Shown here one piece after another: positions 9,973 through 31,302 of a stretch of 64,000 nucleotides of DNA. The notes beneath the pieces are model-generated. The model was not told the DNA's origin and did no database searches. It saw nothing but the letters and a program-made list of their open reading frames with translations. The stretch lies in contig NZ_AP025477.1 in the NCBI RefSeq assembly GCF_024347415.1, forward strand, positions 434,001 through 498,000, given 5' to 3'. Positions within the stretch are counted from its first letter, which is position 1. Every line of letters begins with the position of its first letter. The DNA comes from Vibrio crassostreae (GTDB lineage: Bacteria > Pseudomonadota > Gammaproteobacteria > Enterobacterales > Vibrionaceae). The position numbers and the translations under genes were made by a program.

Positions 9973-10416
9973 TCAGTGTCTTGTGCGAGAAGACGTCAGT
10001 TCTGATGCACGTAACTGAGCAACGGCTTTCGCCAATTCAAGCTGAGCTTGTGCGAAGTTAATGTCTATGTTGCCCTTGTTGATGTTCTCTAGAGCCGCAT
10101 ATTTCGCCTCTTCTGCACGAGCGCGGTCAATGTCTTTACCATGCAAGGCAGTGTCGGCTAACACCGTAACGACATCCGGTTGAACTTCTAGCATCCCTCC
10201 AGAGACATACAGCACTTGGCCTTCTGATTTAGGGTCCGTGACAAACACGGTTACGCCCGGTTTGATCTTACTGAGAAGCGGAGAGTGACCGGGGCGAATC
10301 CCCAGTTCACCGTCAGCGCCAGAAACAGCTAGGGCATACGCTGGACCTGAAAACAGCGTACCTTCCGCACTTACAATATTAAGTTGAAATGTATTATCTG
10401 TGATTCCGATAGCCAT
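9973..10416 (-). CDS. atpC: F1Fo ATP synthase epsilon subunit
   Basis: Last gene of the atp operon. The 147-residue protein has the N-terminal beta-sandwich of the epsilon chain (FQLNIVSAEGTLFSG, then GADGELGIRPGHSPLLSKIK) and a C-terminal helical hairpin rich in Ala and Glu. Epsilon forms part of the central rotor stalk and inhibits ATP hydrolysis. It is slightly longer than the E. coli protein (139). It starts 14 bases after atpD ends. Confidence 0.95.
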   Translation of the reverse strand: MAIGITDNTFQLNIVSAEGTLFSGPAYALAVSGADGELGIRPGHSPLLSKIKPGVTVFVTDPKSEGQVLYVSGGMLEVQPDVVTVLADTALHGKDIDRARAEEAKYAALENINKGNIDINFAQAQLELAKAVAQLRASELTSSRTRH

Positions 10417-10430
10417 TGTGCACCTACCTG

Positions 10431-12730
<2,300 letters not shown>

Positions 12731-12776
12731 AATCTGCTCCTATTTGTTTTGATTTCCAGCTAACAAACCGGAGCAC

Positions 12777-14318
12777 TTACCAAGCTTTCATCCCAACAAA
12801 ACCTTCTAGGATCTCTTTAAGAGCGCCGTCGATTTCGTCGTTGTAATCGCCTGTCGCGTTAATTTTTTCGAATAGCGCAGGGTTTTGACCTTTGGCGTAA
12901 GCAATCAGTTCTTCTTCAAAACGGGCAATGTTGCTTAGTTCAACACCGACCAAGTAGCCTTTCTCTGCAGCGTAAATAACCGTTGCTTGCTCAGCGACTG
13001 ACATTGGGGAGTATTGTTTTTGCTTCATTAACTCGGTAACACGTTCACCATGGTCTAGCTGTTTACGCGTCATCTCATCTAGGTCAGAAGAGAACTGAGC
13101 AAATGCTGCTAGCTCGCGGTATTGAGCTAATGAAGTACGGATACCACCAGACAGTTTCTTGATGATCTTGCATTGTGCCGCACCACCCACACGAGATACC
13201 GAGATACCTGGGTCTACTGCAGGACGTAGGCCTGAGTTAAACAGTTGGGTTTGAAGGAAAACCTGACCATCGGTGATGGAGATTACGTTGGTTGGTACAA
13301 ATGCTGATACGTCACCCGCCTGAGTTTCAATGATAGGAAGCGCTGTTAATGAACCAGTTTGACCTTTCACTTCACCGTTAGTGAACTTCTCTACATACTC
13401 TGCATTCACTCGTGCTGCACGTTCTAGTAGGCGTGAGTGAAGGTAGAATACGTCGCCAGGGAAGGCTTCACGACCTGGTGGGCGTTTCAATAGCAATGAG
13501 ATTTGACGGTAAGCAACGGCTTGTTTTGATAGGTCATCATAGATGATCAGCGCATCTTCACCGCGGTCACGGAAGTATTCACCCATGGTGCAACCCGCAT
13601 AAGGGGCTAGGTATTGAAGCGCTGCAGACTCTGATGCTGACGCCACAACGACGATGGTGTTTTTTAGCGCATCGTGGTCTTCGAGTTTACGAACCACGTT
13701 AGCGATAGTGGAGGCTTTTTGGCCAATAGCCACATACACACATTTGATGCCAGAATCTTTCTGATTGATGATCGCATCGATAGCTAACGCTGTTTTACCC
13801 GTCTGACGGTCACCGATGATAAGTTCACGTTGACCTCGGCCGATTGGCACCATGGTATCAACCGCTTTGTAGCCAGTTTGAATCGGTTGATCGACTGACT
13901 TACGTTCGATTACACCGGGTGCAATCACTTCTACAGGGTCGAGTCGGTCACAACTCACTGGGCCTTTGCCATCGATTGGCTCGCCTAATGTGTTTACTAC
14001 ACGGCCAAGAAGTCCATTGCCGACGGGTACTTCCAAGATACGACCTGTACCTTTCACTTTCATACCTTCAGAGAGGTCAGTGTAGGGGCCCATAACCACG
14101 GCACCTACTGAGTGGGTATCGAGGTTAAGTGCGAGTGCGTATTTACCACCTGGTAGCTCAATCATCTCACCTTGCATAACATCAGCAAGGCCATTGATTG
14201 TGATGATGCCATCACGAACCGATACGATAGTGCCTTCGTTGCGAGCCTCGGTGCTCACATTAAATTTCGAGATGCGTTCTTTGATTAGATCGCTGATTTC
14301 ATTTGAATTTAATTGCAT
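12777..14318 (-). CDS. atpA: F1Fo ATP synthase alpha subunit
   Basis: Non-catalytic nucleotide-binding subunit of F1. It is 513 residues, the same length as E. coli AtpA. The P-loop GDRQTGKT is at 169-176, as in E. coli, and the C-terminal region has the VSRVGGAAQ segment with its conserved arginine. It is 9 bases from atpH. Confidence 0.97.
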
Positions 14319-14327
14319 AATTGTTAC

Positions 14328-14879
14328 CTATCTCGCGTGAAGTTGATGAGCCAATCGGTCAATTGATGTGTTTAAAGAACCATCGATAACGGTTTCACCC
14401 GCCTTGATGACCATTCCACCCACTAACGTGTCATCAATAACCTGCTTCATTTCAACCTGACGCTCTAATTTCTTCTCAAGTGCAGCTGTTAATGACGTAA
14501 CTTGATCTTGTGTCAGCATTTCAGAACTGGTGACAGTGACAGGCACTACACGCTCATGTTCGTCCTTTAGCTCGCAGAACAATTCAAACAGGTCTCTTAC
14601 AACAGAAAGACGGCCGTTCTCGGCCAAGACTCTAATAAGATTAATGACGTGGTCATCAACGAGTCCTTGGCAAATATGAATGATGAGGTTTGCCAGCTCT
14701 TCTGTTTGGTGTGTAGAAGCCCCTTCAGCTGAAGAAATCTGACTAGCGATCGTTTCTTCTTCCGCGACAGCTACAAGAATGGACAGCATTGAGTGCCACT
14801 CTTGTAACTGGTTTTCACCTAAAGCAAATTCAAACGATGCTTTGGCGTAGGGATGAGCAATATTGGTGTAATCTGACAT
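14328..14879 (-). CDS. atpH: F1Fo ATP synthase delta subunit
   Basis: Peripheral stalk subunit joining F1 to the b subunits. It has 183 residues, with the typical start ([14 protein letters not shown], the A-x-P-Y-A-x-A-x-F motif) and end ([17 protein letters not shown], then [12 protein letters not shown]). It is placed between atpF and atpA as in other gammaproteobacteria, 11 bases after atpF. Confidence 0.95.
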
Positions 14880-14890
14880 ATTGCCTCTCC

Positions 14891-15361
14891 TTAGAGTTCG
14901 CTAATCATTTGGTCAACTAGCGCTCGGTTCGTTGCGGAATCTAGGTTTTTGCTAATCAGTTTCTGTGCACTTTGAATCACTGCGTCTGCCATATCCGCCT
15001 GAAGTTCACGGCGTATCTTTTGGCGTTCGCCTTCTAGCTCAGCTCTACCTTGTTCTAAGATGCGTGCCTTTTCTTGCTCGGCTTCTTGTTGCGCTAAGCT
15101 GATGATTTCATTGCGGCGTTTTCGGCCTTGTTCAACCAGTTCAGTCACATCTTTTCTTGCATCTTCGATGAGTTGCGCGCCATTTGATTTTGCTAGTTCT
15201 AGCTCTTTCGCAGCGTTCTCTGAGTGGCGTAAACCATCAGCGATTTCTTTTTGGCGCTCGTCTAACATCGCGGTGAGAGGGGGCCATACATATTTCATGC
15301 AGAGCCAAACAAAAATCACGAATGAGATTGCTTGTCCAAACATGCTTGCATTTAAGTTCAT
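14891..15361 (-). CDS. atpF: F1Fo ATP synthase b subunit
   Basis: Peripheral stalk subunit of 156 residues, the same length as E. coli b. It has one N-terminal membrane helix ([20 protein letters not shown]) followed by a long charged helix rich in Glu, Lys, Arg and Ala that forms the dimeric stalk. It lies between atpE and atpH. Confidence 0.96.
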
Positions 15362-15415
15362 ACCTTCCTCACTAAATCTTGATTATGTATAAATCGATCT
15401 TTCAAAGCGGTTTGA

Positions 15416-15652
15416 TTAAGCCACGGCGAAGATGATGTATAGACCGATACCAACACCAATCATCGGTACTGCATCCACAAGACCCATCATGATGAAGAAT
15501 TGAGTACGAAGCATTGGAGTAAGGTCTGGTTGACGCGCAACACCTTCAAGGTATTTACCTGCTAAGTTACCAATACCAGATGCTGCACCTGCTGCACCTA
15601 AACCGATCAGTAATGCACCTGCTACATATAAAACTGCGCTTACGATATCCAT
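15416..15652 (-). CDS. atpE: F1Fo ATP synthase c subunit (proton type)
   Basis: Ring-forming proteolipid of 78 residues with two membrane helices. The ion-carrying acid is Asp60 in the segment [14 protein letters not shown], which closely matches E. coli Asp61. The Na+ signature (Gln in helix 1 with Glu-Ser/Thr in helix 2) is absent. The enzyme is therefore predicted to be proton-coupled. The polar loop ARQPDL that contacts gamma and epsilon is conserved. Confidence 0.96.
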
Positions 15653-15697
15653 TTGTATCTCCGAAAATAATTTGTTAGTTAATTTTTTAGTTATTAA

Positions 15698-16871
<1,174 letters not shown>

Positions 16872-17591: not shown

Positions 17592-18473
17592 TTACTCTTC
17601 ATAACTGAGGTATTGAATACATAAGTCATGAAAAGCCTGTGCTTGTGGTGAGATCGTACGATCAGACAATCTGAAAATACCAATTTGTCGTTGCAAGGGC
17701 GGGTCAATTAACGGAATCCACACCAAGCGGGTTTCATTCGTTGGGAAAGCCAGCTTAGGTAGCGTGGTCACGCCTATCCCGAGCTCTAACACCGAAAACA
17801 GCGAGGTAATGTTCTCGACTGAGTATAGGGCTTGTTCGCTGAGCATGCGCGCAGGCGTTGGGTCTAGTAGGGTGCAAGTCCCGTTCCGAATGAAGGGCTG
17901 TTTTAACAAAGTTTGCCATTCGATTCCTCCCCGTTGAGAGGCAATAGGGTTGTCTTTGAGGCACACCACACCGATAGGATCAGAAAGTAAAGGCGTGAAG
18001 TCGATGCTCTCTTCTTCTAAATGGGAGCTATTGCCGAGGGCAACATCCACCTCGCCAGAGAGTAACCTTGCTTCTACACCTGCCGCATTATCATCAATCA
18101 AACTCACTTCTACATTAGGGTACTGCTCACAAAAAGCCCCTAAAACACTGGGGATTAGTTTTGCGGCTACCGAAGGCACGCTCGCTATTCGAACTCTTCC
18201 TTGTTGTCCTGCTGCCGCTGCGCGTAGGTCATTGTCTAATGCTTTGTAAACATTCAGGAATTGAATGATTTTTGGCAGGCATATTTCCCCGAAAGGTGTC
18301 AGGGTTGATTTGTTGCCTGTTTCAAACAGTGGCTGACCAAGTATTTTTTCTAGCTCTTTTATCGACGTAGAAAGTGCCGCTTGCGAGCGATTTGCGCGGT
18401 GAGATGCTGCTCGAAATCCGCCTTCTTCGACCACTAAAACAAAATGTTTTAACTGTTGTAGCTTAATACTCAT
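17592..18473 (-). CDS. LysR-family regulator of the RidA/ALDH/BCCT island
   Basis: A 293-residue LysR-type regulator. Its helix-turn-helix lies in MSIKLQQLKHFVLVVEEGGF followed by RAASHRANRSQAALSTSIKE. It is divergent from ridA with about 150 bases between them. A 19-base dyad in that gap (18521-18539) has LysR-box character. It probably senses the substrate or an intermediate of the pathway encoded to its right. The effector is unknown. Confidence 0.88.
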   Translation of the reverse strand: MSIKLQQLKHFVLVVEEGGFRAASHRANRSQAALSTSIKELEKILGQPLFETGNKSTLTPFGEICLPKIIQFLNVYKALDNDLRAAAAGQQGRVRIASVPSVAAKLIPSVLGAFCEQYPNVEVSLIDDNAAGVEARLLSGEVDVALGNSSHLEEESIDFTPLLSDPIGVVCLKDNPIASQRGGIEWQTLLKQPFIRNGTCTLLDPTPARMLSEQALYSVENITSLFSVLELGIGVTTLPKLAFPTNETRLVWIPLIDPPLQRQIGIFRLSDRTISPQAQAFHDLCIQYLSYEE

Positions 18474-18520
18474 GGCACTGATCCTTCTCTAGCCCTTGCT
18501 ATACCTTACTTTTCACAAGG

Positions 18521-18539
18521 TGATAGGTTTTATTTATCA
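18521..18539. promoter_or_regulatory. Candidate LysR box between lysR and ridA
   Basis: TGATA (18521-18525) and TATCA (18535-18539) are perfect inverted arms spaced by 9 bases, which contains a T-N11-A core. The half-site TTTATCA recurs at about 18560. The position in the divergent gap supports an operator. Confidence 0.45.
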
Positions 18540-18630
18540 AATGCACAAAATTTACCGTTAGATTTATCATTCGTCAAGGTGCAGTATTTAACCATCTTGA
18601 AACATAGTTGTTACAAAGTTGGATGAAATC

Positions 18631-19029
18631 GTGAACGCACAAACTAAAAAACACCCAGTAAAAACCGAGCTTTTCGCTTCAAAAGCACCACTAGAGTGGG
18701 CAATCGTTAATAACGGCACTCTATACACAGCGCAGATTCCAATTGATGAAACTGGCGCAGTAGTAGAGGGCGGTATTGAAGCGCAAACGCGTCAGACTTT
18801 TAACAACCTTGTTCATACGTTGGAGTGTGCAGGCGAACCTATGGATTCAGTGCTGCAAGTTCTGATCTACGTGACAGATCGTGAATACCTAAAAACGGTA
18901 AACAGCGTATACGGAGAATACTTCAATGCACCTTATCCAAACCGTGCTGCGGTCGTCGTTGCCGGGTTAGCAAGAGAAGAAATGTTGGTTGAGTTCGTGG
19001 TTTATGCATCAGCATCTCAACCTGAATAA
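18631..19029 (+). CDS. RidA-family imine/enamine deaminase
   Basis: RidA (YjgF/UK114) proteins hydrolyse reactive enamine and imine intermediates of amino-acid metabolism. The conserved arginine is in PYPNRAAVVVAGL and the conserved glutamate in VEFVVYA. I prefer the GTG at 18631, because the GGA at 18621 gives normal spacing. An in-frame TTG at 18619 would add four residues but has no good ribosome site. The mature protein has about 132 residues, normal for the family. It is the first gene after the divergent LysR and probably protects the cell from an imine formed in this pathway. Confidence 0.85.
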   Translation: MNAQTKKHPVKTELFASKAPLEWAIVNNGTLYTAQIPIDETGAVVEGGIEAQTRQTFNNLVHTLECAGEPMDSVLQVLIYVTDREYLKTVNSVYGEYFNAPYPNRAAVVVAGLAREEMLVEFVVYASASQPE

Positions 19030-19225
19030 TTCGACTGTGAACTAAGGCTATTTGCGGATCAAAACTCTTTTGAATTAAAGCGGTTTATTGATACAAGCGA
19101 TCGGGTTCACTTCAGATACAAAATGTACGACTTATTTTAGCAATTAATTACCTGAATATTAACAGTTTATTAATTAACCAAATGGTTGCCAGACTCAACC
19201 GCAACCTAACCGTTACAAGGACAGA

Positions 19226-20689
19226 ATGATGACTCAATTACAGAATGTTCAAGCAGAAAGCGCACTTTACATTGGCGGCGAATGGCAAGCTGGTGTAAGC
19301 ACCGTTACGAACATTAACCCATCAGATATTTCTGAAAACATCGGTAACTTTGCACAAGCAAGCGCAGAGCAAGTTCAACAAGCGATTTCAGCGGCAAAAC
19401 ACGCTCAACCAGAGTGGGAAAAAACGCCGATTGAACGCAAGCAAGCGGTACTTCAAGCGATTGGTGATGAGCTGATTGCACGTTGTGATGAACTAGGCAC
19501 ACTACTTTCGCGTGAAGAAGGTAAGCCTTTTGCTGAAGGTCGTGGTGAGATTTACCGTGCAGGACAGTTCTTCCAATACTTTGCGGCTGAAGTGCTTCGT
19601 CAAATTGGTGACAACGCGGATTCAGTGCGCCCAGGCGTTTCTGTTGAAGTGACTCGTGAAGCGGTAGGCGTTATCGGCATCATCTCTCCTTGGAACTTCC
19701 CGACAGCAACGGCTGCTTGGAAAATTGCTCCAGCACTGGCTTTCGGTAACAGCGTTATCTGGAAACCAGCAAACCTAACACCAGCAAGTGCGGTTGCGCT
19801 TACTGAGATAATCCACCGTCAAGGTATCCCTGCAGGTACGTTCAACCTTGTTTTGGGTAGCGGTTCAACAGTGGGTGATGCACTGATCAACTCTAAAGAA
19901 GTGAACGGTGTGAGCTTTACTGGTTCGGTTGATACGGGTCGTAAAGTAGCAGCCGCTACCGCACCAAACTTCGTTCGTTGCCAACTAGAAATGGGCAGTA
20001 AGAACGCACTTGTGGTTGCTGACGATGCTGATATCCAAACAGCAGTTGATGCAACTATCGCAGGTTCATTCTCTGGCGCAGGTCAAAAATGTACAGCATC
20101 TTCTCGTCTAGTGGTTATGGACGGCATTCACGACCAATACGTTGAAGCACTGATTAAGCGTATGAGCGAGCTGAAAGTGGGTCACGCACTAGAAGAAGGC
20201 GTGTTCATGGGGCCGGTAGTTGACGGTAACCAACTTGAAGCAAACCTAGGCTGGGTTGAGAAAGCGCGTCAAAGCGGCGGTGAGCTGGCATTTGGTGGTG
20301 AACGCTTGAGCATGCAACACGAAGGTTTTTACATGTCTCCAACGCTGTTCTTAAACACTAAGAACGATTGGGAAGTGAACCAAGAGGAAGTGTTCGCACC
20401 AATGGCAAGCGTGATTCGTGTGGCTGACCTAGAAGAAGCTATCGCGACGACCAACGATACTCGCTTTGGTCTAACAGGCGGCATAATTACTCAGAGCCTA
20501 CGTACTAGCGCAATGTTCAAGCAACAAGCGCAAACAGGTTGTGTGATGGTGAACCTACCAACAGCAGGCACGGATTACCACGTACCGTTTGGCGGCCGTA
20601 AAGAGTCTAGCTTCGGTCCTCGTGAGCAAGGTCAATACGCGAAAGAGTTCTACACAGTGGTTAAGACGGCTTACCAGCGTCCTTACTAG
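19226..20689 (+). CDS. NAD(P)-dependent aldehyde dehydrogenase
   Basis: An aldehyde dehydrogenase of 487 residues with all catalytic residues present: Asn157 (SPWNFPTA), Glu255 (QLEMGSKN) and Cys289 (GAGQKCTASSR). The sequence around the cysteine and the LEMGSKNALVV segment resemble alpha-ketoglutarate-semialdehyde dehydrogenases of the YcbD type more than betaine aldehyde dehydrogenases. That sub-family call is tentative. A neighbouring M19 protein, RidA and BCCT importer suggest it oxidises an aldehyde derived from an imported nitrogenous compound. ATG codons at 19226 and 19229 are equally possible starts. Confidence 0.9.
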   Translation: MMTQLQNVQAESALYIGGEWQAGVSTVTNINPSDISENIGNFAQASAEQVQQAISAAKHAQPEWEKTPIERKQAVLQAIGDELIARCDELGTLLSREEGKPFAEGRGEIYRAGQFFQYFAAEVLRQIGDNADSVRPGVSVEVTREAVGVIGIISPWNFPTATAAWKIAPALAFGNSVIWKPANLTPASAVALTEIIHRQGIPAGTFNLVLGSGSTVGDALINSKEVNGVSFTGSVDTGRKVAAATAPNFVRCQLEMGSKNALVVADDADIQTAVDATIAGSFSGAGQKCTASSRLVVMDGIHDQYVEALIKRMSELKVGHALEEGVFMGPVVDGNQLEANLGWVEKARQSGGELAFGGERLSMQHEGFYMSPTLFLNTKNDWEVNQEEVFAPMASVIRVADLEEAIATTNDTRFGLTGGIITQSLRTSAMFKQQAQTGCVMVNLPTAGTDYHVPFGGRKESSFGPREQGQYAKEFYTVVKTAYQRPY

Positions 20690-20726
20690 ATAGATCTCTA
20701 TTAATTGACGTTCTATTAATGAAAAG

Positions 20727-20751
20727 TGGCCTGATTCACAGAGTCAGGCCA
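20727..20751 (+). terminator. Hairpin after the aldehyde dehydrogenase gene
   Basis: TGGCCTGA (20727-20734) pairs perfectly with TCAGGCCA (20744-20751). The stem is GC-rich but has no following T run. It may be a weak terminator, or a stabilising structure between the dehydrogenase and dipeptidase genes. Confidence 0.5.
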
Positions 20752-20800
20752 ACATTCAAACCAAAGCAGCAAACGAACTTAGACAAGTGATTTAACCCAT

Positions 20801-20835
20801 TTTTGAAAACATGTTACTTGAGCGTGTTTTCAAAA
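20801..20835. promoter_or_regulatory. 11-base inverted repeat before the M19 gene
   Basis: TTTTGAAAACA (20801-20811) and TGTTTTCAAAA (20825-20835) are perfect inverted copies with a 13-base spacer, ending 36 bases before the M19 start. The AT-rich arms resemble an operator more than a terminator. The regulator is unknown. Confidence 0.45.
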
Positions 20836-20871
20836 CCGAGCTAGAACACTGAGCTTTCAATAGGAGTGGTT

Positions 20872-21867
20872 ATGTACCAGCAACGGATTGTTATAGATGG
20901 ATTGCAATACTGCAATTGGAATAGAGAATACTTCCAAACACTAAAGGCGAGCGGCATTACAGCAGTTCACGCTACCGCGGTTTACCATGAGACAGCTCGT
21001 GAAACCTTATCTCGCTTTGCAGAGTGGAACTTAAGATTCGAGCAGAACGCAGACCTTATTATGCCGATTCACTCAATGGCTGATGTTGAGACTGCAAAAG
21101 CGACCGGTAAAGTCGGTATTTTCCTTGGTGCTCAAAACTGTTCTCCAATCGACGATGAGATCGGTCTTATCGAAGTGATGCGTAAGCAAGGTCTTTTGAT
21201 CATGCAACTGACGTACAACAACCAGAGCTTACTGGCGACAGGTTGCTACGAGAAGAACGACACTGGTATTACTCGCTTTGGTAAACAAGCCATCGAAGAG
21301 ATGAACCGAGTGGGCATGATCATCGATATGTCTCACAGTGCCGAGCGCTCAACACTTGAAGCGATTGACTTGTCTTCTCGTCCTATTTGTATCAGTCACG
21401 CGAACCCGACGTTCGCTCATGATGCATTACGAAACAAATCAAACGATGTGATTAAAGCCCTAACCGCACGCGGTGGCTTAATCGGATTCAGCTTATACCC
21501 ATTCCACCTACCAAATGGCAGCCAATGTACATTGGAAGACTTTTGCCAGATGGTTGCGACTACCGCTGACATGGTCGGCGTAGAGCACCTTGGTATTGGC
21601 AGTGACCTATGCTTAAACCAACCTCAAGCCGTTCTTGAGTGGATGAGAAATGGTCGTTGGTCTAAAGCTATGGACTACGGTGAAGGCTCTGCGAACAACT
21701 CAGGTTGGCCAGATGCGTTGCCTTGGTTCTGTGGTAGTGCGGGTATGGAAAATATTTATAACGGATTGATGCGTCATGGTTTCAGCGAGTCTGAAGCTGG
21801 GCAAGTCTTGGGAGAAAACTGGTTTAACTTCTTGAAAGATGGCCTAGAGCCTCAAACCAAGGGTTAA
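20872..21867 (+). CDS. M19 (membrane dipeptidase) family protein with altered metal site
   Basis: A 331-residue protein of the renal-dipeptidase (M19) fold, but of a divergent branch. Canonical members begin with D-G-H-N-D, whose His and Asp bind zinc; here the segment is DGLQYCNW. The bridging Glu is replaced by Gln88 (LGAQN). The later metal histidines remain (SHSAE, His155; ISHAN, His176). From memory, a branch like this lies beside dimethylglycine dehydrogenase genes in Pseudomonas, so a role in betaine-type metabolism rather than dipeptide cleavage is plausible. The ATG at 20872 follows TAGGAG by 5 bases; an upstream in-frame GTG overlaps that site and is unlikely. Confidence 0.85.
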   Translation: MYQQRIVIDGLQYCNWNREYFQTLKASGITAVHATAVYHETARETLSRFAEWNLRFEQNADLIMPIHSMADVETAKATGKVGIFLGAQNCSPIDDEIGLIEVMRKQGLLIMQLTYNNQSLLATGCYEKNDTGITRFGKQAIEEMNRVGMIIDMSHSAERSTLEAIDLSSRPICISHANPTFAHDALRNKSNDVIKALTARGGLIGFSLYPFHLPNGSQCTLEDFCQMVATTADMVGVEHLGIGSDLCLNQPQAVLEWMRNGRWSKAMDYGEGSANNSGWPDALPWFCGSAGMENIYNGLMRHGFSESEAGQVLGENWFNFLKDGLEPQTKG

Positions 21868-22097
21868 CGATTTCTCGCAAGCCATCATCGAATTAGCAGC
21901 CTTCTAACAAACGTTCAATTAGCAAGTGCTGCTTAAACCAATTTCACTATTCAAAAGGAACAACGGTCTATTTCGCAACGCGGTAACCCAAACATGGATT
22001 AGCCTGCCCAACACAAAAAACAATAGGGCAGGTGTTAAATACACCCTTGTAGTCATCATTCAAATGACAGCTGCAAAGAAACCTCTGGAGTCAGAGT

Positions 22098-23693
22098 ATG
22101 TCTGATTTAACCAATAGCGTGAAATCTTCAAGCTTAAATGCGGGTCAAGCACACACAACAAGCAACACAAACGGGTCTGAGTCTACATCAGATAAATTAG
22201 GTCTATCCAACCCAGCACTTTGGTACAGCGGCGGCTTTATCGCTCTGTTCGTGGCACTTGCTCTATTTGATGGCGAGCTGTTATCAAGCCTAGTAAACGC
22301 TGGCTTTGCATGGTCTGTAAAAGTGTTCGGTCCTTACTGGCAAATGCTTCTTCTTCTGACTTTTCTTATTGGTCTTGGCCTTGCGGCAGGGCGAACAGGC
22401 AAGGTTATCCTAGGCGGCATCGCTAAACCTGAAATGGATGGTTTCCGTTGGATGGCGATCATCTTCTGTACGCTACTGGCAGGCGGCGGCGTATTTTGGG
22501 CAGCAGCAGAGCCTATTGCTCACTACGTTAGCCCACCACCATTGTACGGCGCACAAGAAAACGCACAGCAAGGCGCGGTGAATGCGTTATCGCAATCCTT
22601 CATGCACTGGGGTTTCTTAGCATGGGCTATCGTCGGCAGCTTAACGTCTATCGTGGTTATGCACCTTCACTACGACAAAGGCTTGCCGCTTAAACCTCGT
22701 ATTTTGCTTTACCCAGTATTGGGTGAGCGTGCACTGAAAGGCCACACAGGCGCATTGATTGATGCATGTTGTATTGTCGCAGTAGCGGCGGGCACCATCG
22801 GTCCTATCGGCTTCTTAGGCTTGCAAGTCAGCTACGCACTGAACGCACTGTTTGATATTCCAGATGGTTTCACAACACAGCTAATCATCATTCTGTTCGC
22901 AATCGTTTTATACACATTATCGGCATTAAGTGGTCTTAACCGCGGGATGCAAATGCTAAGCCGTTACAACGTAATTTTGGCAATGGCATTGATGGTCTAC
23001 ATCCTGATCTTTGGTCCAACGAACTTTATCTTCAATGGCTACATTCAAGGTGTAGGCAGCATGATTGATAACTTCATCCCAATGGCGACTTACCGTGGTG
23101 ACGAAGGTTGGTTGAGCTGGTGGACAGTGTTCTTCTGGGGTTGGTTCTTAGGTTACGGCCCAATGATGGCAATCTTCATCGCTCGTATTTCACGCGGTCG
23201 TAGTATACGCCAATTGGTATCAACCATTAGCCTTATCGCACCGTTTGTTACTTGCTTCTGGTTCACGATTGTTGGTGGCTCTGGTCTTGCGTTCGAAATC
23301 GCAGATCCGGGTAGCGTAAGTAAGGCATTTGAAGGCTTTAACTTACCAGGCGCACTACTAGCTGTGACTCAGCAATTACCAATGCCAATGCTGATATCTA
23401 TTTTGTTCTTGATCTTAACAACGATCTTCATCGTAACGACTGGTGACTCAATGACTTACACCATCAGTGTAGTTATCAGTGGTGAGACAGAACCCAATGC
23501 AATTATTCGTACCTTCTGGGGTGTGATGATGGGGGTAACAGCGTTAATTCTGATTTCCCTAGGTTCTGGCGGTATTTCAGCGCTGCAATCCTTCATTGTT
23601 ATCACCGCGGTACCGGTTTCCTTAATCTTGCTGCCATCACTTTGGAACGCGCCTCAAATCGCAATCAAGATGGCAAAAGAGCAGGGGCTGTAA
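22098..23693 (+). CDS. BCCT-family transporter with altered substrate box
   Basis: A 531-residue membrane protein of the betaine/choline/carnitine transporter family with about 12 helices. The family signature at residues 341-368 (WWTVFFWGWFLGYGPMMA) is recognisable, and FIARISRGRS follows. In BetP three tryptophans of this segment build the cage for the quaternary ammonium group. Here the second and third are Phe350 and Tyr353. The glycine-rich helix 3 motif is also changed (LAGGGVFWAAAEPI). The ligand may therefore differ from glycine betaine. Its place in a gene set with dehydrogenase and hydrolase genes argues for uptake of a carbon or nitrogen source rather than osmoprotection. Confidence 0.88.
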   Translation: MSDLTNSVKSSSLNAGQAHTTSNTNGSESTSDKLGLSNPALWYSGGFIALFVALALFDGELLSSLVNAGFAWSVKVFGPYWQMLLLLTFLIGLGLAAGRTGKVILGGIAKPEMDGFRWMAIIFCTLLAGGGVFWAAAEPIAHYVSPPPLYGAQENAQQGAVNALSQSFMHWGFLAWAIVGSLTSIVVMHLHYDKGLPLKPRILLYPVLGERALKGHTGALIDACCIVAVAAGTIGPIGFLGLQVSYALNALFDIPDGFTTQLIIILFAIVLYTLSALSGLNRGMQMLSRYNVILAMALMVYILIFGPTNFIFNGYIQGVGSMIDNFIPMATYRGDEGWLSWWTVFFWGWFLGYGPMMAIFIARISRGRSIRQLVSTISLIAPFVTCFWFTIVGGSGLAFEIADPGSVSKAFEGFNLPGALLAVTQQLPMPMLISILFLILTTIFIVTTGDSMTYTISVVISGETEPNAIIRTFWGVMMGVTALILISLGSGGISALQSFIVITAVPVSLILLPSLWNAPQIAIKMAKEQGL

Positions 23694-23731
23694 TAATAAG
23701 GCTCTGTAAGAAACTGATTAAATAAGAACAA

Positions 23732-23755
23732 ATCAGCCTTTGAAAGAAGGCTGAT
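23732..23755 (+). terminator. Hairpin after the BCCT gene
   Basis: ATCAGCCTT (23732-23740) pairs perfectly with AAGGCTGAT (23747-23755) around a 6-base loop. No T run follows. It may attenuate transcription from the transporter gene into the next gene, which starts about 225 bases further on. Confidence 0.5.
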
Positions 23756-23978
23756 GCAAAATTCCGAAAGGAACAAAAAACCGTACTGGTGAAGATACAT
23801 CGGGCGGCACGTATTTAGGTCAATTGATCTAGTCAGGACAAAATAATAAGGGGTGAGCTCGCTTGCCCCAAATAACGTGAAAGCTAACCAACACACTGTA
23901 AAAACGAATGCTTCAAATGATGGCAACGATCGGTTCTGAATGGCTAGCAAAATCCTATAACTATAAGGTGGTGAGCAA

Positions 23979-25718
23979 ATGGATGCACATCGTTCTACCT
24001 ACACTGAATCAGCACTACGTGACGCGACTGTCGTCATGGCACCGGAAAGGCTAGGTGCAATGCACCAAACACGTATCAGCTTCGTTAGAACTCTGATTCG
24101 TAAAATGGCTCAGCAAGAATGGAAAGTGACGAAACATGAGTGGCAATTAGACGCTCAAGGTTTTGGTCATGTTATCTATAAGCTTGCGACGCCAAACCAT
24201 GTTTATCATTTGGTTGTTTTCTGCGATGAGATTGCAGATGACGAACGAAATGACCGTGTAATTGCTGAAAAGTGGGACGTAACGTTTGCGCTTGTTCTTG
24301 GTGATGTTGATGTCGCCCTACTTGAAAGACTTCGTGCGAACGTACCGCTTCAAGAAGCAGGCCGTAATCCAAATAACGTGCTTGTGTTGGCGCGTGCAAA
24401 CAAAAGTGTACGTGTGTTTGAACACATCGTGAGTCACTTGGCTAAAGGTGTTCAACCAACGCCAAAAGAGCTGGCTGAAGTGGGTTACATCCTGCGAACG
24501 ACAGCGGTATACGGTAATGGCAAATTTGGCATTGCTGACTTTAAAATCTTAGAGAAAAATGAAGATTTTAATCAGTCGTTTAGTGCGCAAATGTGTGCGG
24601 TTTATATGCTGCGTGAGTTCAGCCTAGATTGGGTTCATTACCTAGCCGAGCAACAGGGCGGTGAACAAGCGATTACCTTGCATAGAGGATTACAGCGTTA
24701 CCTTGGTGTTGGTAATGCGACTGGTTTAGGCATGGCGCCATACCTGATTAACCACCCGAGTATTGTCGATCAGTGGATGACAACACGTGAGCATGCATTA
24801 GCTGACGTGTTAGTTAGTCACACGGATACGGCGTTGATTGAGCCACTACGTACATTAGTTAAAAAAGCGGTTTGTCATTTAGAACAAGTCGTTACCATCA
24901 ATGAAAACCAGCAAGAGTTGAACAAAGTAGCGGTTGATGAATTAAAACACGCAGAGCAATCGCTAGAAGTGTCTGTCAGCCAATGTGATACGTGGGCGCA
25001 GTTAGTTGAACAATCTAAGCACATGAGTATGGAAGCCCAAGAAATCCTTATCTCATGCTTGATGGAATTGTACCCAGAATTAGTGGACGCCCATCAAGAG
25101 CAAATGAATTGCAGCGAAACACTGTCGCTTCCAAGTGGTAAAAAGATTCAAGACCTTTTGGTTGTGTTAGAAGAAAAGTACCGTTGGGCTATCACGACCG
25201 ACTTTACTAAAGCCGAAAACAACTACTGGTTCTGGTACCGCTCTCAAGATAAAGAAGAACCAAGACTCGGTGTTCGAGGTGAAGAGCTAGGCGAAGAGCG
25301 TGAACTGCCGCTGGATATAGGCCGTCAAGCTTACCGTTTGTACCATGCTTTATTGCAGTTTGCGCCAGAGCTTTCATTGGCTGAGTTCCTTGTTAAGCAG
25401 CCACAGCATCGTGCTATTGCACGTCGTGTATGGACGCTAGGCAACAAAGCGATGGGCGACATTCAAATGAATGTTCTGCACCAAGATTCGCCACCAATGC
25501 ACTTACTGCGTTGCAAGCTTGCGATGTTTGGTGCGACTAAGTTTGATCCTCGCTCAGACCGTTGGGTACGAGTGACGTTTTTCCAAGGTGCGCCATTGCT
25601 TGATGAAATTCATCAGGACGAATGGGTGTTCCCAGTATTACCAAGTGAAGCGGAGCTCGCTGATTCACAAAAAGCTACTACACATATTAATGCTCAACAT
25701 GGAGGTAAATCGTTATGA
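23979..25718 (+). CDS. Large protein of unknown function in the BCCT island
   Basis: I do not recognise this 579-residue protein. It has no signal peptide or membrane helix, so it should be cytosolic. The N-terminal part (residues about 1-130) looks like a compact alpha/beta domain ending in a hydrophobic strand (WDVTFALVLGDVDVALLERL). The middle and C-terminal parts are mostly helical, with many Glu, Gln and Leu. No nucleotide-binding motif or metal cluster is seen. Its stop overlaps the start of the DUF3726 gene by 4 bases (ATGA), so the two are translationally coupled and probably work together. A GGTGG site precedes the ATG. Its long leader of about 285 bases contains a stable hairpin. 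Confidence 0.8.
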   Translation: MDAHRSTYTESALRDATVVMAPERLGAMHQTRISFVRTLIRKMAQQEWKVTKHEWQLDAQGFGHVIYKLATPNHVYHLVVFCDEIADDERNDRVIAEKWDVTFALVLGDVDVALLERLRANVPLQEAGRNPNNVLVLARANKSVRVFEHIVSHLAKGVQPTPKELAEVGYILRTTAVYGNGKFGIADFKILEKNEDFNQSFSAQMCAVYMLREFSLDWVHYLAEQQGGEQAITLHRGLQRYLGVGNATGLGMAPYLINHPSIVDQWMTTREHALADVLVSHTDTALIEPLRTLVKKAVCHLEQVVTINENQQELNKVAVDELKHAEQSLEVSVSQCDTWAQLVEQSKHMSMEAQEILISCLMELYPELVDAHQEQMNCSETLSLPSGKKIQDLLVVLEEKYRWAITTDFTKAENNYWFWYRSQDKEEPRLGVRGEELGEERELPLDIGRQAYRLYHALLQFAPELSLAEFLVKQPQHRAIARRVWTLGNKAMGDIQMNVLHQDSPPMHLLRCKLAMFGATKFDPRSDRWVRVTFFQGAPLLDEIHQDEWVFPVLPSEAELADSQKATTHINAQHGGKSL

Positions 25719-26452
25719 TCGTTTCTCACAATGAACTGGTAGCGGCCGTCAATAAAGCCTTTCTGGGTATGCGCCGTACATGTGGTGAAGCCGATGTGAT
25801 AGCGAACATGGTGGCAGATTTACAAATGGTGGGGTTGGATGGTGTTCGTCATTTTAACAATGCGAGCAACTTCATTGGGTTAGAAGACGATTGCCCAGTG
25901 GACATTCAAGTGCTTAGCGATAACACGGTTGAAGTTGACCTGCACAAGGCAAGTTTAGCGTGCCACCTACCTGTGGTGATGGATTACGCGATTGAAAAAA
26001 TGGTCGGCAAGAAGACGCTGAAAATTGAGTTAAACAACTGTCATAACCGCTGGCTAGCGTACAGCGAGCTTGTGAAACTGGCGGCGAAGGGCATCGCGTG
26101 TACTGCACGTTGGGATAATGGCTCCAACCCTAAGAGCACTTTGTATGTGCTTAACCGTGGTTGCGTTGCACCAGAATTGTTTTTATCAGATTTGCCTCTG
26201 GCATCGGACGATCATATCCACAATATGACCATCGAGCTTTCCGTCCAGGATTTCGATATCGAACGTTTGTCAGATGGCTACCAAACACACATTGAATCGG
26301 AAGCGCTTTTTAAAACTCAAGAGAAGGCGTGGAACGAGGGCATTGAAGTTGACGATGGAGAGTGGGGCGCGTTGAAAGAAACGGCCACGGCTATCCTTGT
26401 TGAAAACAGCCAACGTTCAATTCAAGGTGCAGGTGAGCTAGAAGCTTCTTAG
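25715..26452 (+). CDS. DUF3726-like protein
   Basis: A 245-residue protein that I place in DUF3726 from memory of its sequence. Its start (MIVSHNELVAAVNKAFLGMR, then DGVRHF) resembles the N-terminus of the malate/L-lactate dehydrogenase (Ldh_2) family, whose members include reductases of cyclic imino acids. The later part does not show that family's NAD-binding region clearly, so it may be a shortened or non-catalytic relative. It is translationally coupled to the unknown gene before it. The function is unknown. Confidence 0.75.
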   Translation: MIVSHNELVAAVNKAFLGMRRTCGEADVIANMVADLQMVGLDGVRHFNNASNFIGLEDDCPVDIQVLSDNTVEVDLHKASLACHLPVVMDYAIEKMVGKKTLKIELNNCHNRWLAYSELVKLAAKGIACTARWDNGSNPKSTLYVLNRGCVAPELFLSDLPLASDDHIHNMTIELSVQDFDIERLSDGYQTHIESEALFKTQEKAWNEGIEVDDGEWGALKETATAILVENSQRSIQGAGELEAS

Positions 26453-26614: not shown

Positions 26615-26849
26615 TTGTGTTCTACTTTTGTTCTTCCTCTCAATAGGTCACACCTTAAACTCTCTGTTTTGACACAAGTTGTCACGCGTTGAAGGTTAAT
26701 TGAACGATTAGATGAAGTACCTTCACAATCATGTTAAACAAACGGTTTCTTTTACAAGCCACTATGCGTATCTTGCTAACTAAAGGTGCCAACGGGCGCC
26801 GTTTTTATTCGTACCGATGACATTAGAATCAGATAAAAAGGAATGAAGC

Positions 26850-28142
26850 GTGCAAGCTAACTTTATTGATGGAACCACCCTGTATCGTCAGCACTCTTTT
26901 GAGTTGCCACTCGATTACCAAGCAAAAGATGGACAACAGATCCAAGTCTTCGCACGTGAGCTGGTTGATCTCGCTAAGGATTCGCAAGAACTGCCGTGGT
27001 TGATCTACTTTCAAGGTGGACCGGGCTTCCCGTCGCCACGAGTAAGCGGTCAATCGGGTTGGCTAAAGCGTGCATTGCAAAACTACCGTGTGCTGCTTCT
27101 TGATCAACGTGGTACAGGCAACAGCACGGTGATCAGCCACGAAACATTGGCGCACATGTCTCCAGAGCAGCAAGCTGAATACCTATCGCATTTCAGAGCA
27201 GACAACATCGTGCGCGACGCGGAAGCGATTCGTGAGCAGTTCGGTGTTAAACAATGGTCGACGATTGGCCAGAGCTTTGGTGGTTTCTGTACACTTAGCT
27301 ACTTGTCGTTGTTCCCACAAAGCTTACAGCGTTGTTATGTCACGGGCGGTATTCCGTCTATCGAGCGCGAAGCTGATGATGTGTATCGAGCAACCTACAA
27401 GCGTGTAGAAGACAAAAACAGAGCCTTCTTTGCTCAGTTCCCACAAGCGCAAGCTATGTGTTGTGAGATCTCTGATTACCTGCTTAACAACGACGTGAGA
27501 CTGCCAAACGGTCAGGTGTTTACGGTTGAACAGTTCCAATTGATTGGTATTAACCTTGGTGGCGGTGAAGCAAACCTCCCTATGTACTTCACACTAGAGA
27601 GTGCGTTTGTTGAAGTGAACGGTAACAAGCAGCTGAGCTACAGCTTCCTAAATCAAATGCAGCAAGAGCAGGGCTACCTAACAAACCCTATTTACGCGAT
27701 TCTGCATGAATCGATTTACTGCCAAGGCACAGCGTCTAACTGGTCGGCACATCGCGTGCGTGAGCAGTATTCGCATTTCAACTATCAATCGGGCAGTGAG
27801 TTCTGGTTTACTGGCGAAATGGTTTATCCATGGATGTTCGACCAACTAGAAACACTGAAGCCACTGCGTGAAGCGGCGAACATGCTGGCTGAAAAATCGG
27901 ACTGGGGCACTTTGTACAACGCAGCGCAGCTGAGCAAGAATACGGTTCCGATGGCGTGTGCGGTTTACGCAGATGACATGTACGTAGAGCTGGATTACAG
28001 CCGCGAAACACTGGCGAATATTCCAAATTCGAAAGCGTGGATTACTAATGAATATGAACACAATGGTTTGCGAGTAGACGGCGAAAGAATTGTCGATAAG
28101 TTAATGACAATGGTTGATTCGTTAGAGAACCTGCCAAAGTAA
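26850..28142 (+). CDS. Alpha/beta hydrolase, proline iminopeptidase-like (S33)
   Basis: A 430-residue peptidase of family S33, which removes N-terminal residues, often proline. The oxyanion motif GGPG is at residues 56-59, the conserved DQRGTG at 85-90 and the nucleophile Ser142 in GQSFGG. A C-terminal aspartate (YADDMYVE) and histidine (EYEHNGLR) complete the triad. There is no signal peptide. The start is GTG, 7 bases after AAGGA; a nearby ATG at 26843 is out of frame and closes after five codons. It has its own promoter region after a terminator, so membership in the BCCT island is uncertain. Confidence 0.88.
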   Translation: MQANFIDGTTLYRQHSFELPLDYQAKDGQQIQVFARELVDLAKDSQELPWLIYFQGGPGFPSPRVSGQSGWLKRALQNYRVLLLDQRGTGNSTVISHETLAHMSPEQQAEYLSHFRADNIVRDAEAIREQFGVKQWSTIGQSFGGFCTLSYLSLFPQSLQRCYVTGGIPSIEREADDVYRATYKRVEDKNRAFFAQFPQAQAMCCEISDYLLNNDVRLPNGQVFTVEQFQLIGINLGGGEANLPMYFTLESAFVEVNGNKQLSYSFLNQMQQEQGYLTNPIYAILHESIYCQGTASNWSAHRVREQYSHFNYQSGSEFWFTGEMVYPWMFDQLETLKPLREAANMLAEKSDWGTLYNAAQLSKNTVPMACAVYADDMYVELDYSRETLANIPNSKAWITNEYEHNGLRVDGERIVDKLMTMVDSLENLPK

Positions 28143-29145: not shown

Positions 29146-31302
29146 CTATCGGATGTTGATGGTGTTATCTCTGCGGTCATACATGTCCGGTGTGGTATGT
29201 AAGCCACCTGCGTAACCTGCAGCTTCAAGTGTTTCTCTTACCTCACGAACATGCTCTGCGGTGACTGGTTCTTGCCTGTCTCCAAGATGCAATCGCACGA
29301 AGGTAATCAACTCAGCCAGTCTCTGATCCGACAATACATCTTCAAAACTTGCCATCGGCATGAAGTTTCTATCCTTGTCGAGATAGGTGGGTTGTAGGCC
29401 ACGTACGGTTACCGCAATGGTGTTGAATGGGTCGCTGTGCATGATAATACCGTTATTCAATAGAGTAGGGGCGATAGGGTCGCGACCCTTACCATCATCA
29501 CCATGACACGCCCCACAGGTTTGACGATACGTGGTGTAGATTTCAGCTGCGTAAGACTCTTCATCAAAGCCTTGAGGCTGTAACGGCACGGCATCGCTGC
29601 TAATGGTGTTGTTGATATCACCGCTCAGCAAGTAGTAGGACATAGACTCAATATCTTCACGCGTCATCAAGCTTAGGCTGTTTTTCACTACATCAGCCAT
29701 ACCCGCAAAAGCCGTACCTTTGTCTGAGTGACCTGTGTGTAAGAAATCGGTGAGTATTTTCTCATCCCAGCCGTCGATATAGAGCTCATTTGCGGTGATG
29801 TCAGGTGCGTTCCAACCGTCGATTAAGTTACCTTGGAAAATACGTTCTGGTATCAGTGCTTGGGCAATGTTTCGTGGCGTATGGCACTCCGAACAGTGAC
29901 CAAGTCCTGCGACCCAATATTTGCCTTGTTGCCACTTATCGACATTCTCAATTTCTCCTTTGAGCTCCTCTGGTACTTCATAATCAATAGGGTCGGTATC
30001 CATGAATACGATGTTCCAGCCAAGCAAACCTAAGCGAATATTGGATGGAAACATCATGCTGTTGTCATCATTGCGTCGTGGCACGGCGGTGATTGACTGC
30101 ATGTATTCCCATAAATCGACCATGTCTTGGTCGGTGAGGTATTGATAAGAGGTGTAAGGCATCGCTGGGTACAGGTAACCATTCTTACCTTTACCTGCGA
30201 CTAACGCAGCTCGGAAATCATCGAAGTTATAAGTCCCGATCCCTTCGGTGGTGTGTGGGGTTATGTTGGTTGAATACACGGTACCGAAAGGGGTCACAAA
30301 CGGTAGGCCGCCAGCAAAGGGTTCGCCACCTTCTGCACTATGACAAGCTACACAGTCACCGGCATAAGCGAGATATTCTCCGCGCTCAACAGATGATGCT
30401 TTCAAACTCGCGAGCCTTTGTTGCTCTACTTCACCAGCGTGTCGGATATAAGCCCCAAGCGCGAGTATTTCGTTCTCGCTGAGCTGCTCATCAAACGCAG
30501 GCATTAGATTGTTCAAACCGTAATTGATGGTGTGCTGAATCTCTTCAATACTGCCCCCGTGTAGCCAAGTATCATCGGAAAGGTCAGGTACTCCAATCGC
30601 TGGGTTGGCGACCGTACCATCGGCATGGCAAGACGAACAATATTTGGCGAATAAGGTCTTACCGAGTTTGACCTTAACCTCAGGCACATCGGTATGACGC
30701 TGGTTAAGAGACGCTAGATAGTAAGATACCTTTGCCACTTCATCCGGGCGCATGATTTCGCTCCAACCTGGCATCGCACCATTTCGCCCTTTGGCAATGG
30801 AATGGATCACAGCCTCATCACTACCGCCATATAACCAATCTTGGTCGATAAGGTTAGGGAAGTGTTTCTGGCCTTGTGCATTGTCTCGGTGACACGCCGC
30901 ACAGTGAGTTTGGAATAGTATCTGACCGCTGTTCACGATCTCAGGAACTGCAGCTAATCCCTCTAACGTGGTTTCACTGGTTTGTGCAAATTGCTCATTG
31001 AGAGTGGTGGATGGTGAACTGAGCTTGTCATCGCTCTGCTCCCAATCGACTAAGCCTTTCCACTCACCAAGCCCAGGGTAGAGCACCAAGTAGCCTGCAG
31101 AGAGTAAGAAGGCTACCGCATAACTGACAAACAGCAGTTTAGGTGGCGGCGCGTCTTTCTCTTCAATGCCATCAAAGGTGCCAATGGTGTGGTCGTGATC
31201 GGCCTTGTGATTGCTACGCCAGTATTTAACGACAACAGACACCATCAGAACAAAGAAAATTAAGGTTAATAATACCGCCCATAGATTCCAAAATGTGCTC
31301 AT
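29146..31302 (-). CDS. ccoP: Cytochrome cbb3 oxidase subunit CcoP, pentahaem fusion form
   Basis: Membrane-anchored cytochrome c subunit of a cbb3 terminal oxidase. Two N-terminal membrane helices (about residues 6-27 and 56-76) are followed by five CXXCH haem motifs at 134-138, 222-226, 317-321, 470-474 and 596-600. Usual CcoP has two haems and about 300 residues. Here the first 300 residues match that plan. The remaining 400 or so resemble the trihaem cytochrome subunit of alcohol or gluconate dehydrogenases (YLAYAGDCVACH, TNITPH, GHCSECHTPRN). It overlaps ccoO by 4 bases. The fusion implies a built-in electron donor module. Confidence 0.9.
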   Translation of the reverse strand: MSTFWNLWAVLLTLIFFVLMVSVVVKYWRSNHKADHDHTIGTFDGIEEKDAPPPKLLFVSYAVAFLLSAGYLVLYPGLGEWKGLVDWEQSDDKLSSPSTTLNEQFAQTSETTLEGLAAVPEIVNSGQILFQTHCAACHRDNAQGQKHFPNLIDQDWLYGGSDEAVIHSIAKGRNGAMPGWSEIMRPDEVAKVSYYLASLNQRHTDVPEVKVKLGKTLFAKYCSSCHADGTVANPAIGVPDLSDDTWLHGGSIEEIQHTINYGLNNLMPAFDEQLSENEILALGAYIRHAGEVEQQRLASLKASSVERGEYLAYAGDCVACHSAEGGEPFAGGLPFVTPFGTVYSTNITPHTTEGIGTYNFDDFRAALVAGKGKNGYLYPAMPYTSYQYLTDQDMVDLWEYMQSITAVPRRNDDNSMMFPSNIRLGLLGWNIVFMDTDPIDYEVPEELKGEIENVDKWQQGKYWVAGLGHCSECHTPRNIAQALIPERIFQGNLIDGWNAPDITANELYIDGWDEKILTDFLHTGHSDKGTAFAGMADVVKNSLSLMTREDIESMSYYLLSGDINNTISSDAVPLQPQGFDEESYAAEIYTTYRQTCGACHGDDGKGRDPIAPTLLNNGIIMHSDPFNTIAVTVRGLQPTYLDKDRNFMPMASFEDVLSDQRLAELITFVRLHLGDRQEPVTAEHVREVRETLEAAGYAGGLHTTPDMYDRRDNTINIR

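Follow-up and report, generated by a model that had tools for sequence, protein, structure and literature searches.

What does Vibrio crassostreae do with seven genes gathered around a 579-residue protein that falls outside the known families? The genes lie in a stretch of 64,000 nucleotides (hereafter the window; contig NZ_AP025477.1, positions 434001-498000, of a 5.8 Mb genome), which an earlier note, made from the sequence alone, had read as a catabolic island around an unusual transporter. All seven are where that note placed them and have the families it gave: a LysR regulator, RidA (Ribonuc_L-PSP), an aldehyde dehydrogenase (ALDH; Aldedh), a Peptidase_M19 protein (M19), a BCCT importer, the Pfam-less 579-residue protein (U579) and a DUF3726 protein; its description of the set as co-oriented holds for six of them, the LysR gene running divergently on the minus strand. 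Operon make-up, together with the linkage of related operons to mgd genes, suggests that the island is probably a LysR-controlled operon for taking up homarine (N-methylpicolinate) and degrading it by a modified form of the published hom pathway. The note's remark that no pathway it knew had this composition is for the same reasons probably out of date, the homarine pathway being one of 2026; the pathway is probably a known one, of which this Vibrio form is a variant.

The set is a genuine conserved unit and no chance grouping. A scan for U579 in a named genome collection gave 101 confirmed relatives, the best 80 of which were used as loci; in 79 of these 80 the genes for ALDH, M19 and BCCT are no further than 7.5 kb from U579, and in 78 the same is true of RidA, the exceptions being L057, where a contig end cuts the locus, and L079, which is an exception for RidA only. 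LysR is present in 77 (not in L057, L071 or L079). The closest U579 relatives among these loci are from Vibrio lentus, V. splendidus, V. crassostreae and V. tasmaniensis, and it is because the partners are kept while the flanking genes vary across Vibrio clades, Aliivibrio, Photobacterium, Psychromonas, Moritella, Grimontia and Enterovibrio that we regard the set as real; the gene-neighbourhood comparison that the earlier note had proposed for U579 thus finds its partners together in other genomes. Two extensions of the unit were rejected: an abhydrolase gene (26850-28142) adjoins the set solely in close relatives of the window genome, and a larger fixed block carrying the set is contradicted by flanks that differ between genera.

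U579 itself is widespread, with at least 4619 homologues among 8000 candidates scored. Of the genomes sampled, 81 of 197 in the window's family have it, as do 91 of 198 in the Phaeobacter family (the family of genome G115, which shares an identical U579 with a Phaeobacter porticola plasmid). A more distant query found it in 16 of 369 genomes of the class; the figures are 29 of 398 for genomes of the phylum and 168 of 72,556 for plasmid records. The matches come in pieces, perhaps decayed copies or assembly breaks, in G942, G1008 and G1011, three members of the window's family.

We clustered and compared the genes of a further 94 U579 loci, most of them from the Phaeobacter family and the rest from other alphaproteobacteria and from gammaproteobacteria (18). 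Within 7.5 kb of U579, 88 of them have M19 and 45 an ALDH (50% identity or more). The commonest further gene encodes an Ldh_2-family reductase, found in 33 loci; RidA is found in 16 (in L186 at only 36% identity). The two never share a locus, and the remaining 45 lack them both (Fisher p = 9e-4). For the ALDH-bearing loci alone (also 45), the counts for both, RidA, Ldh_2 and neither are 0, 13, 20 and 12 (p = 1.2e-4). Because relatedness of the loci inflates these p values, we built a U579 tree (FastTree; 74 rows, 33 with RidA and 41 with Ldh_2, including 15 of the 80 named loci), on which the two labels are strongly clustered and have switched at least five times, all five switches being forced by starred branches. 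Mutual exclusion combined with repeated switching argues that RidA and Ldh_2 probably act on one shared imine.

Plasmids carry both forms: of 13 plasmid loci, eight have Ldh_2, three RidA and two, both from Sinorhizobium, neither in range, one of these with RidA further off (L213, from Caballeronia, and L209 are unannotated and were read by tblastn only). A divergent LysR gene with ALDH-M19-U579-DUF3726-Ldh and a BCCT or betaine-type ABC importer is found on plasmids of Phaeobacter, Aliiroseovarius, Rhodobacteraceae M382, two Aminobacter, Roseateles XES5 and Pararhizobium, while a Shinella plasmid has its Ldh gene on the opposite strand and no DUF3726 gene listed, and a Pseudomonas plasmid carries the same RidA form as Vibrio. 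Several alphaproteobacterial operons consist of exactly ALDH, M19, U579, DUF3726, Ldh_2 and LysR, that is, five genes and a regulator.

The neighbours of the Ldh_2-type operons point to a product. In Phaeobacter inhibens 2.10, LysR and ALDH-M19-BCCT-U579-DUF3726-Ldh adjoin a soxBDAG-like operon with a helix-turn-helix regulator gene, and Aliiroseovarius has the same neighbour, at a locus that was fetched via its soxB-like gene and is hence biased. The first subunit of this operon has 72-73% identity to copies in Aminobacter and Rhizobium that adjoin or face gmaS and N-methylglutamate synthase genes; the Phaeobacter subunit is 82% identical to a synthase-linked copy, and the identity is 86% between that of Roseateles and a Rhizobium copy facing gmaS and the synthase. 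Judged by these close matches, the operon is mgdABCD rather than a sarcosine oxidase. Elsewhere, mgd is near U579 in L150 and L158, in other positions, and on the Roseateles plasmid, followed there by purU and folD, so that over all loci examined it stands beside Ldh_2-type operons in three arrangements. It lies within 10 kb in 4 of the 33 Ldh_2 loci versus none of the 61 other distant loci (p = 0.013); L186 has a gene for an N-methylglutamate synthase subunit near U579.

Counting a match of at least 74% identity as a clear MgdA, we find one in 13 of 28 Ldh_2-only and 2 of 14 RidA-only genomes (G398 and G319, which have both types at two loci, were left out, and G569, Ldh_2-type with an 82% match, is outside the set). 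Seven of 14 Ldh_2-type genomes with an MgdA at this level show no N-methylglutamate synthase (G115, G467, G135, G493, G583, G510 and G205; best relatives at most 35% identical), and both RidA-only genomes with an MgdA do have it. N-methylglutamate in these seven should have a source other than the methylamine pathway; the island is the obvious candidate. The broader statement that all Ldh_2-type genomes have Mgd was dropped, as matches of 65-70% identity form a separate group lacking mgd-type neighbours in the loci fetched. Such a soxB/soxA-like pair, 65-70% identical to MgdA, occurs in many Phaeobacter-family genomes (L220, L224, L226, L232-L239), with no gmaS, synthase or AraC matches nearby.

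The window genome looks different. We found in it neither an Ldh_2 protein nor a SoxA/MgdC-type domain; its best MgdA-like match has E = 1.6e-6, and its best N-methylglutamate synthase relative is 35% identical. Five other U579-bearing Vibrio genomes, whose RidA was unchecked, have at most weak MgdA-like matches. The N-methylglutamate ending thus does not seem available in the window genome, in which case RidA would end the route in 2-oxoglutarate and methylamine.

The homABCDER operon (Ferrer-Gonzalez et al., Nat Microbiol 2026) reportedly has five genes plus a regulator and leads to N-methylglutamate and glutamate; its name did not occur among the matches listed in the literature searched, in which homA likewise gave, among those listed, nothing but words beginning with it such as homarine itself, and homarine transport nothing new. 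According to a paper of 2026, which cites a conserved homarine pathway, Mgd takes part in homarine catabolism (PMC13390433). Homarine is reported as an osmolyte of diatoms and mussels (PMC12817926, PMC8447493), and Ruegeria pomeroyi reportedly draws diatom homarine down fast (PMC12817926).

From these elements a route can be drawn, in which the substrate, each of the reactions and the sequence of the middle steps (2 to 4) are inferences. The BCCT protein would import homarine (step 1), and U579 with DUF3726 would open the N-methylpyridinium ring between C5 and C6 (step 2), giving a chain of five carbons whose C2 bears both the acid and the N-methyl nitrogen and whose C5 is an aldehyde. ALDH would oxidize this 2-amino-substituted semialdehyde to a dicarboxylate (step 3), a substrate that suits it because ALDH is closest to the ketoglutaric semialdehyde type. 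M19 would then strip the one-carbon (C6 formyl) group off the N-methyl nitrogen to leave 2-(methylimino)glutarate or its enamine (step 4), which RidA would hydrolyse to 2-oxoglutarate and methylamine (step 5). In many alphaproteobacteria the Ldh_2 reductase would take step 5 instead, forming N-methylglutamate for conversion to glutamate by Mgd; N-methyl-imino acid reductases exist within the Ldh_2 family. Given the substrate, we lean slightly towards the RidA ending in Vibrio. The fuller proposition, that RidA is the committed enzyme of an Mgd-independent, methylamine-releasing ending in Vibrionaceae and some others and that U579/DUF3726 represent a new type of pyridinium ring opening, falls somewhat short of an even chance. 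The earlier note's picture of a catabolic island with imine and aldehyde intermediates survives, with both intermediates conjectural as before.

Should the scheme be true, an orphan type of BCCT would gain a candidate substrate, and three poorly known protein groups (U579, DUF3726 and M19 proteins of the kind solved as 2i5g) would gain roles. RidA would become an enzyme dedicated to catabolism, and methylamine would have a further biological origin wherever vibrios live on algae or shellfish, with a testable split between Ldh_2-type strains, forming N-methylglutamate, and RidA-type strains, forming methylamine.

The importer is clearly a BCCT protein (PF02028, E = 1.5e-148). We aligned it with 77 sequences from named loci and 17 from other genomes (n = 95; eight more distant ones below 38% identity were excluded), assigning cage positions by what we take to be the BetP numbering. 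No sequence departs from tryptophan at the first TM8 position or at the two in TM4. The second and third TM8 positions are taken by F350 and Y353 throughout (95 of 95), and in place of the TM4 tyrosine there is V (58 sequences), L (29) or T (8). The 95 sequences thus have W W V/L/T with W F Y and not the glycine betaine cage, which in V. parahaemolyticus BCCT1 is W W Y in TM4 and W W W in TM8 (PMC12093977). The lack of two cage tryptophans that the earlier note had seen holds across all 95, phenylalanine and tyrosine replacing the second and third of TM8, and its idea of a solute other than plain glycine betaine is, given the altered cage, probably right. The best solved relatives are the trimethylamine transporter 8zw8, then choline-type BCCTs and DddT. 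In PMC12093977, BCCT4 and BCCT7 of V. natriegens, with a cage changed at the same places, moved no tested osmolyte, their expression being unchecked. V. natriegens has a U579 relative (P0076), and orthology of either protein with the island BCCT is not established.

M19 has a modified metal site. Its nearest solved relative is 2i5g (E = 1.1e-60), and both start with VIDGL where canonical M19 proteins have a His-x-Asp pair, the canonical ligands being H, D, E, H, H and D. In our alignment (n = 158, two sequences below 38% identity excluded), Leu13, Tyr15, Gln90, His157, His178 and Asp247 occur in 158 of 158 and His35 is invariant, so the binuclear site of the dipeptidases appears here as L, Y, Q, H, H, D, with the first two places tentatively assigned; the E to Q change is also visible against 3id7. 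That M19 removes the formyl group is tentative at best. ALDH has as its best NCBIfam match the alpha-ketoglutaric-semialdehyde dehydrogenase model NF042993, at 470.6 bits, below the cut-off of 770, and catalytic Cys289 and Glu255 are kept in 122 of 122 aligned sequences (12 below 38% identity excluded). RidA proteins have an Arg and a Glu in the active site; here, of 89 aligned sequences, 83 have Arg109 and all 89 Glu125, and the presence of both in the window protein supports its membership of the family.

U579 resembles nothing characterized. The window protein has no match in Pfam, NCBIfam or PADLOC and no credible sequence relative in PDB (best E = 0.25), its profile against PDB and weak Pfam matches being at chance level, and yet long invariant motifs run through 44 sequences, the 43 others 38 to 98% identical to it. 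A relative, P0172, carries a 'Zorya' name in UniRef; a defence role was considered and rejected, and as no PADLOC model matches either protein the name is probably a misannotation. Of the 94 distant loci, 39 have a DUF3726 cluster member in one strand-run with U579, and 42 of the other 55 have in its place an unassigned open reading frame (ORF) of 142-276 residues; of five such ORFs compared with Pfam, those of L115 and L116 are DUF3726 and those of L124, L202 and L130 are not. No mention of DUF3726 was found in the literature searched. A ring-opening role for U579 with DUF3726 as its partner is, at most, a speculative assignment.

Several observations weigh against the homarine assignment. 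The likeness to homABCDER was drawn from its name, products and gene count and not from gene families; M19 is without ligands that canonical M19 hydrolases use, and U579 has no recognizable cofactor site. Fifteen of the 28 Ldh_2-only genomes have only an MgdA relative of 59-70% identity, with no gmaS, synthase or related regulator nearby in the surroundings fetched, and four of these 15 do have the synthase. A large group of the distant loci, 45 of 94, has neither RidA nor Ldh_2. Nine of the 94 (L120, L122, L140, L143, L150, L151, L152, L154 and L156) have near U579 a second BCCT type, mostly of more than 600 residues, with a cage of Y or W, W, Y in TM4 and W W F in TM8, so that the W-F-Y cage is no requirement for the pathway and does not alone define it. 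U579 also keeps other company: a phosphonate ABC importer in L116 and phosphonate-type enzymes in L160; in L121, MTTB-type methyltransferase, PEP mutase and homocysteine methyltransferase genes in one strand-run with M19-U579-DUF3726; acyl-CoA genes in L115; carbohydrate genes near some loci; and, in a clade about 30% identical to U579 (L202, L130, L214 and L241), IclR, M19, a polyamine-type ABC importer and RidA. This clade may serve another function.

Some of these neighbourhoods have further features of their own. The ~30% identical clade is frequent on Sinorhizobium megaplasmids; L160 has a class V aminotransferase, a type I phosphodiesterase, ALDH and an alcohol dehydrogenase next to U579; and L125 has two neighbouring clusters in common with L121. 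PLP-dependent lyase-like, M24 peptidase-like and arylmalonate decarboxylase/racemase-like genes near U579 in L163, L180, L159 and L176 (typed by Pfam in the first, by cluster membership in the others) recall ectoine or hydroxyaspartate chemistry.

How far might other explanations account for the same set? RidA often accompanies enamine-leaking pathways, and the strong clustering of labels on the U579 tree would fit a mere damage-control enzyme whose exclusion of Ldh_2 is an accident of ancestry; five or more forced switches and the lack of any locus with both make this unlikely in our view, if worth keeping in mind. Clearly less probable is that M19-U579-DUF3726 serves as a general module, put to use on various N-methyl or N-quaternary compounds according to its neighbours, such that the Vibrio substrate could not be read from alphaproteobacteria. 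The phosphonate, MTTB and other contexts, the ~30% clade (in Sinorhizobium and others) with its IclR, polyamine-type importer and RidA, the 45 of 94 loci without either end enzyme and the two BCCT types with different cages all suit such a module; against it, Vibrio, the Pseudomonas plasmid and many alphaproteobacteria share ALDH-M19-importer-U579-DUF3726 with one of two end enzymes.

The substrate could also be another N-methylated betaine, ring or chain, with N-methylglutamate or 2-oxoglutarate as its end product; examples are proline betaine, hydroxyproline betaine and N-methylproline, and ALDH would then be a true alpha-ketoglutaric or N-methylglutamic semialdehyde dehydrogenase. We rate this as improbable, at about the level of the general module or slightly above it: the best match of ALDH, the betaine importers linked to operons and the NADH:flavin oxidoreductase, electron-transfer flavoprotein and pyrroline-5-carboxylate-reductase-like genes that adjoin the Shinella operon agree with it, but the conserved unit has no Rieske demethylase (one lies ~8 kb off in Phaeobacter and on the Pseudomonas plasmid), and such a route would account neither for an imine that either RidA or Ldh_2 can use nor for why U579 and DUF3726 are needed. 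Catabolism of glycine betaine, dimethylglycine or sarcosine is very improbable for the window genome. It has in its favour that the island M19 is nearest to 2i5g, which we take to be the M19 protein of the Pseudomonas dgc locus, and that a predicted dipeptidase gene precedes dgcAB in V. natriegens (PMC12093977); against it, the unit has no gbcAB, dgcAB or sox genes, the window genome no SoxA-type domain and the importer an altered cage, and the V. natriegens transporters with such changes moved no tested osmolyte, with the limits on expression and orthology given above. PA5396 and PA5397 were not found mentioned together in the literature searched. Homarine is the substrate that we continue to prefer.

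The layout of the island is given in Table 1. Between LysR and RidA lies an inverted repeat, TGATAG-N7-TTATCA in the window and TGATAA-N7-TTATCA in several relatives, and it can be made out in most of the 21 LysR-RidA gaps that were aligned (those of Vibrio, Photobacterium, Moritella, Enterovibrio, Grimontia and others), some having a change in one half; it is a possible LysR binding site. A second conserved stretch (18550-18569) lies beyond it. The regulator does not score as a PsrA-type (proline-binding) LysR (NCBIfam NF052633, 139.9 bits; cut-off 540). Terminator-like hairpins number 14 sites in the consensus scan versus 10.4 in shuffles.

Table 1. Genes and sites of the island, in window coordinates
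Feature	Position	Strand	Remarks
LysR-family regulator	17592..18473	-	PF03466/PF00126; divergent from other six genes
Inverted repeat, possible LysR binding site	18521..18539		recognizable in most aligned LysR-RidA gaps
RidA-family imine/enamine hydrolase	18619..19029	+	PF01042; TTG start codon uncertain
Aldehyde dehydrogenase (ALDH)	19226..20689	+	PF00171 (Aldedh)
M19-fold protein, altered metal site, 2i5g type	20866..21867	+	PF01244 (Peptidase_M19)
BCCT-family importer, altered aromatic cage	22098..23693	+	PF02028
U579 (579 residues), core protein outside known families	23979..25718	+	no Pfam match
DUF3726 protein	25715..26452	+	PF12525, E 1.7e-17; 4-base overlap with U579
Terminator-like hairpin 3' of last gene	26785..26800	+	consensus scan alone

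On either side of the island are genes of other kinds. The minus strand carries F0F1 ATP synthase genes at 9973-16871 (one, at 12777-14318, looks atpA-like by eye), which, judged by ORF lengths, adjoin the island only in the window genome's closest relatives. At 29146-31302 lies the gene of a 718-residue protein with five CxxCH haem motifs, next to genes for 204, 474 and 128 residues on the same strand (to 33768), a cluster that resembles an unusual terminal oxidase or cytochrome c cluster.

Among known systems, Tgn, by which Acinetobacter breaks down trigonelline, relies on a flavin monooxygenase pair and a different hydrolase, which the island lacks; it is similar in acting on an isomeric N-methylpyridine carboxylate, and ring opening, aldehyde oxidation and N-formyl removal would proceed by the same logic. 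The 2-aminomuconate branch of aminophenol and kynurenine breakdown likewise pairs an ALDH with a RidA-family deaminase (such as 6izh), whereas the island has no ring-cleaving dioxygenase of known type and has M19 instead of the ACMSD amidohydrolase. The pepD-dgcAB locus shares with the island, in 2i5g, the closest solved M19 relative and its VIDGL start, the partners of M19 being U579 and DUF3726 here and not dgcAB. From homABCDER the Vibrio form differs in having RidA in place of the Ldh_2 reductase, BCCT between M19 and U579 and no clear Mgd found in the genome; the likeness lies in the number of genes in alphaproteobacteria, five structural ones plus a regulator, and in the link to Mgd and N-methylglutamate.

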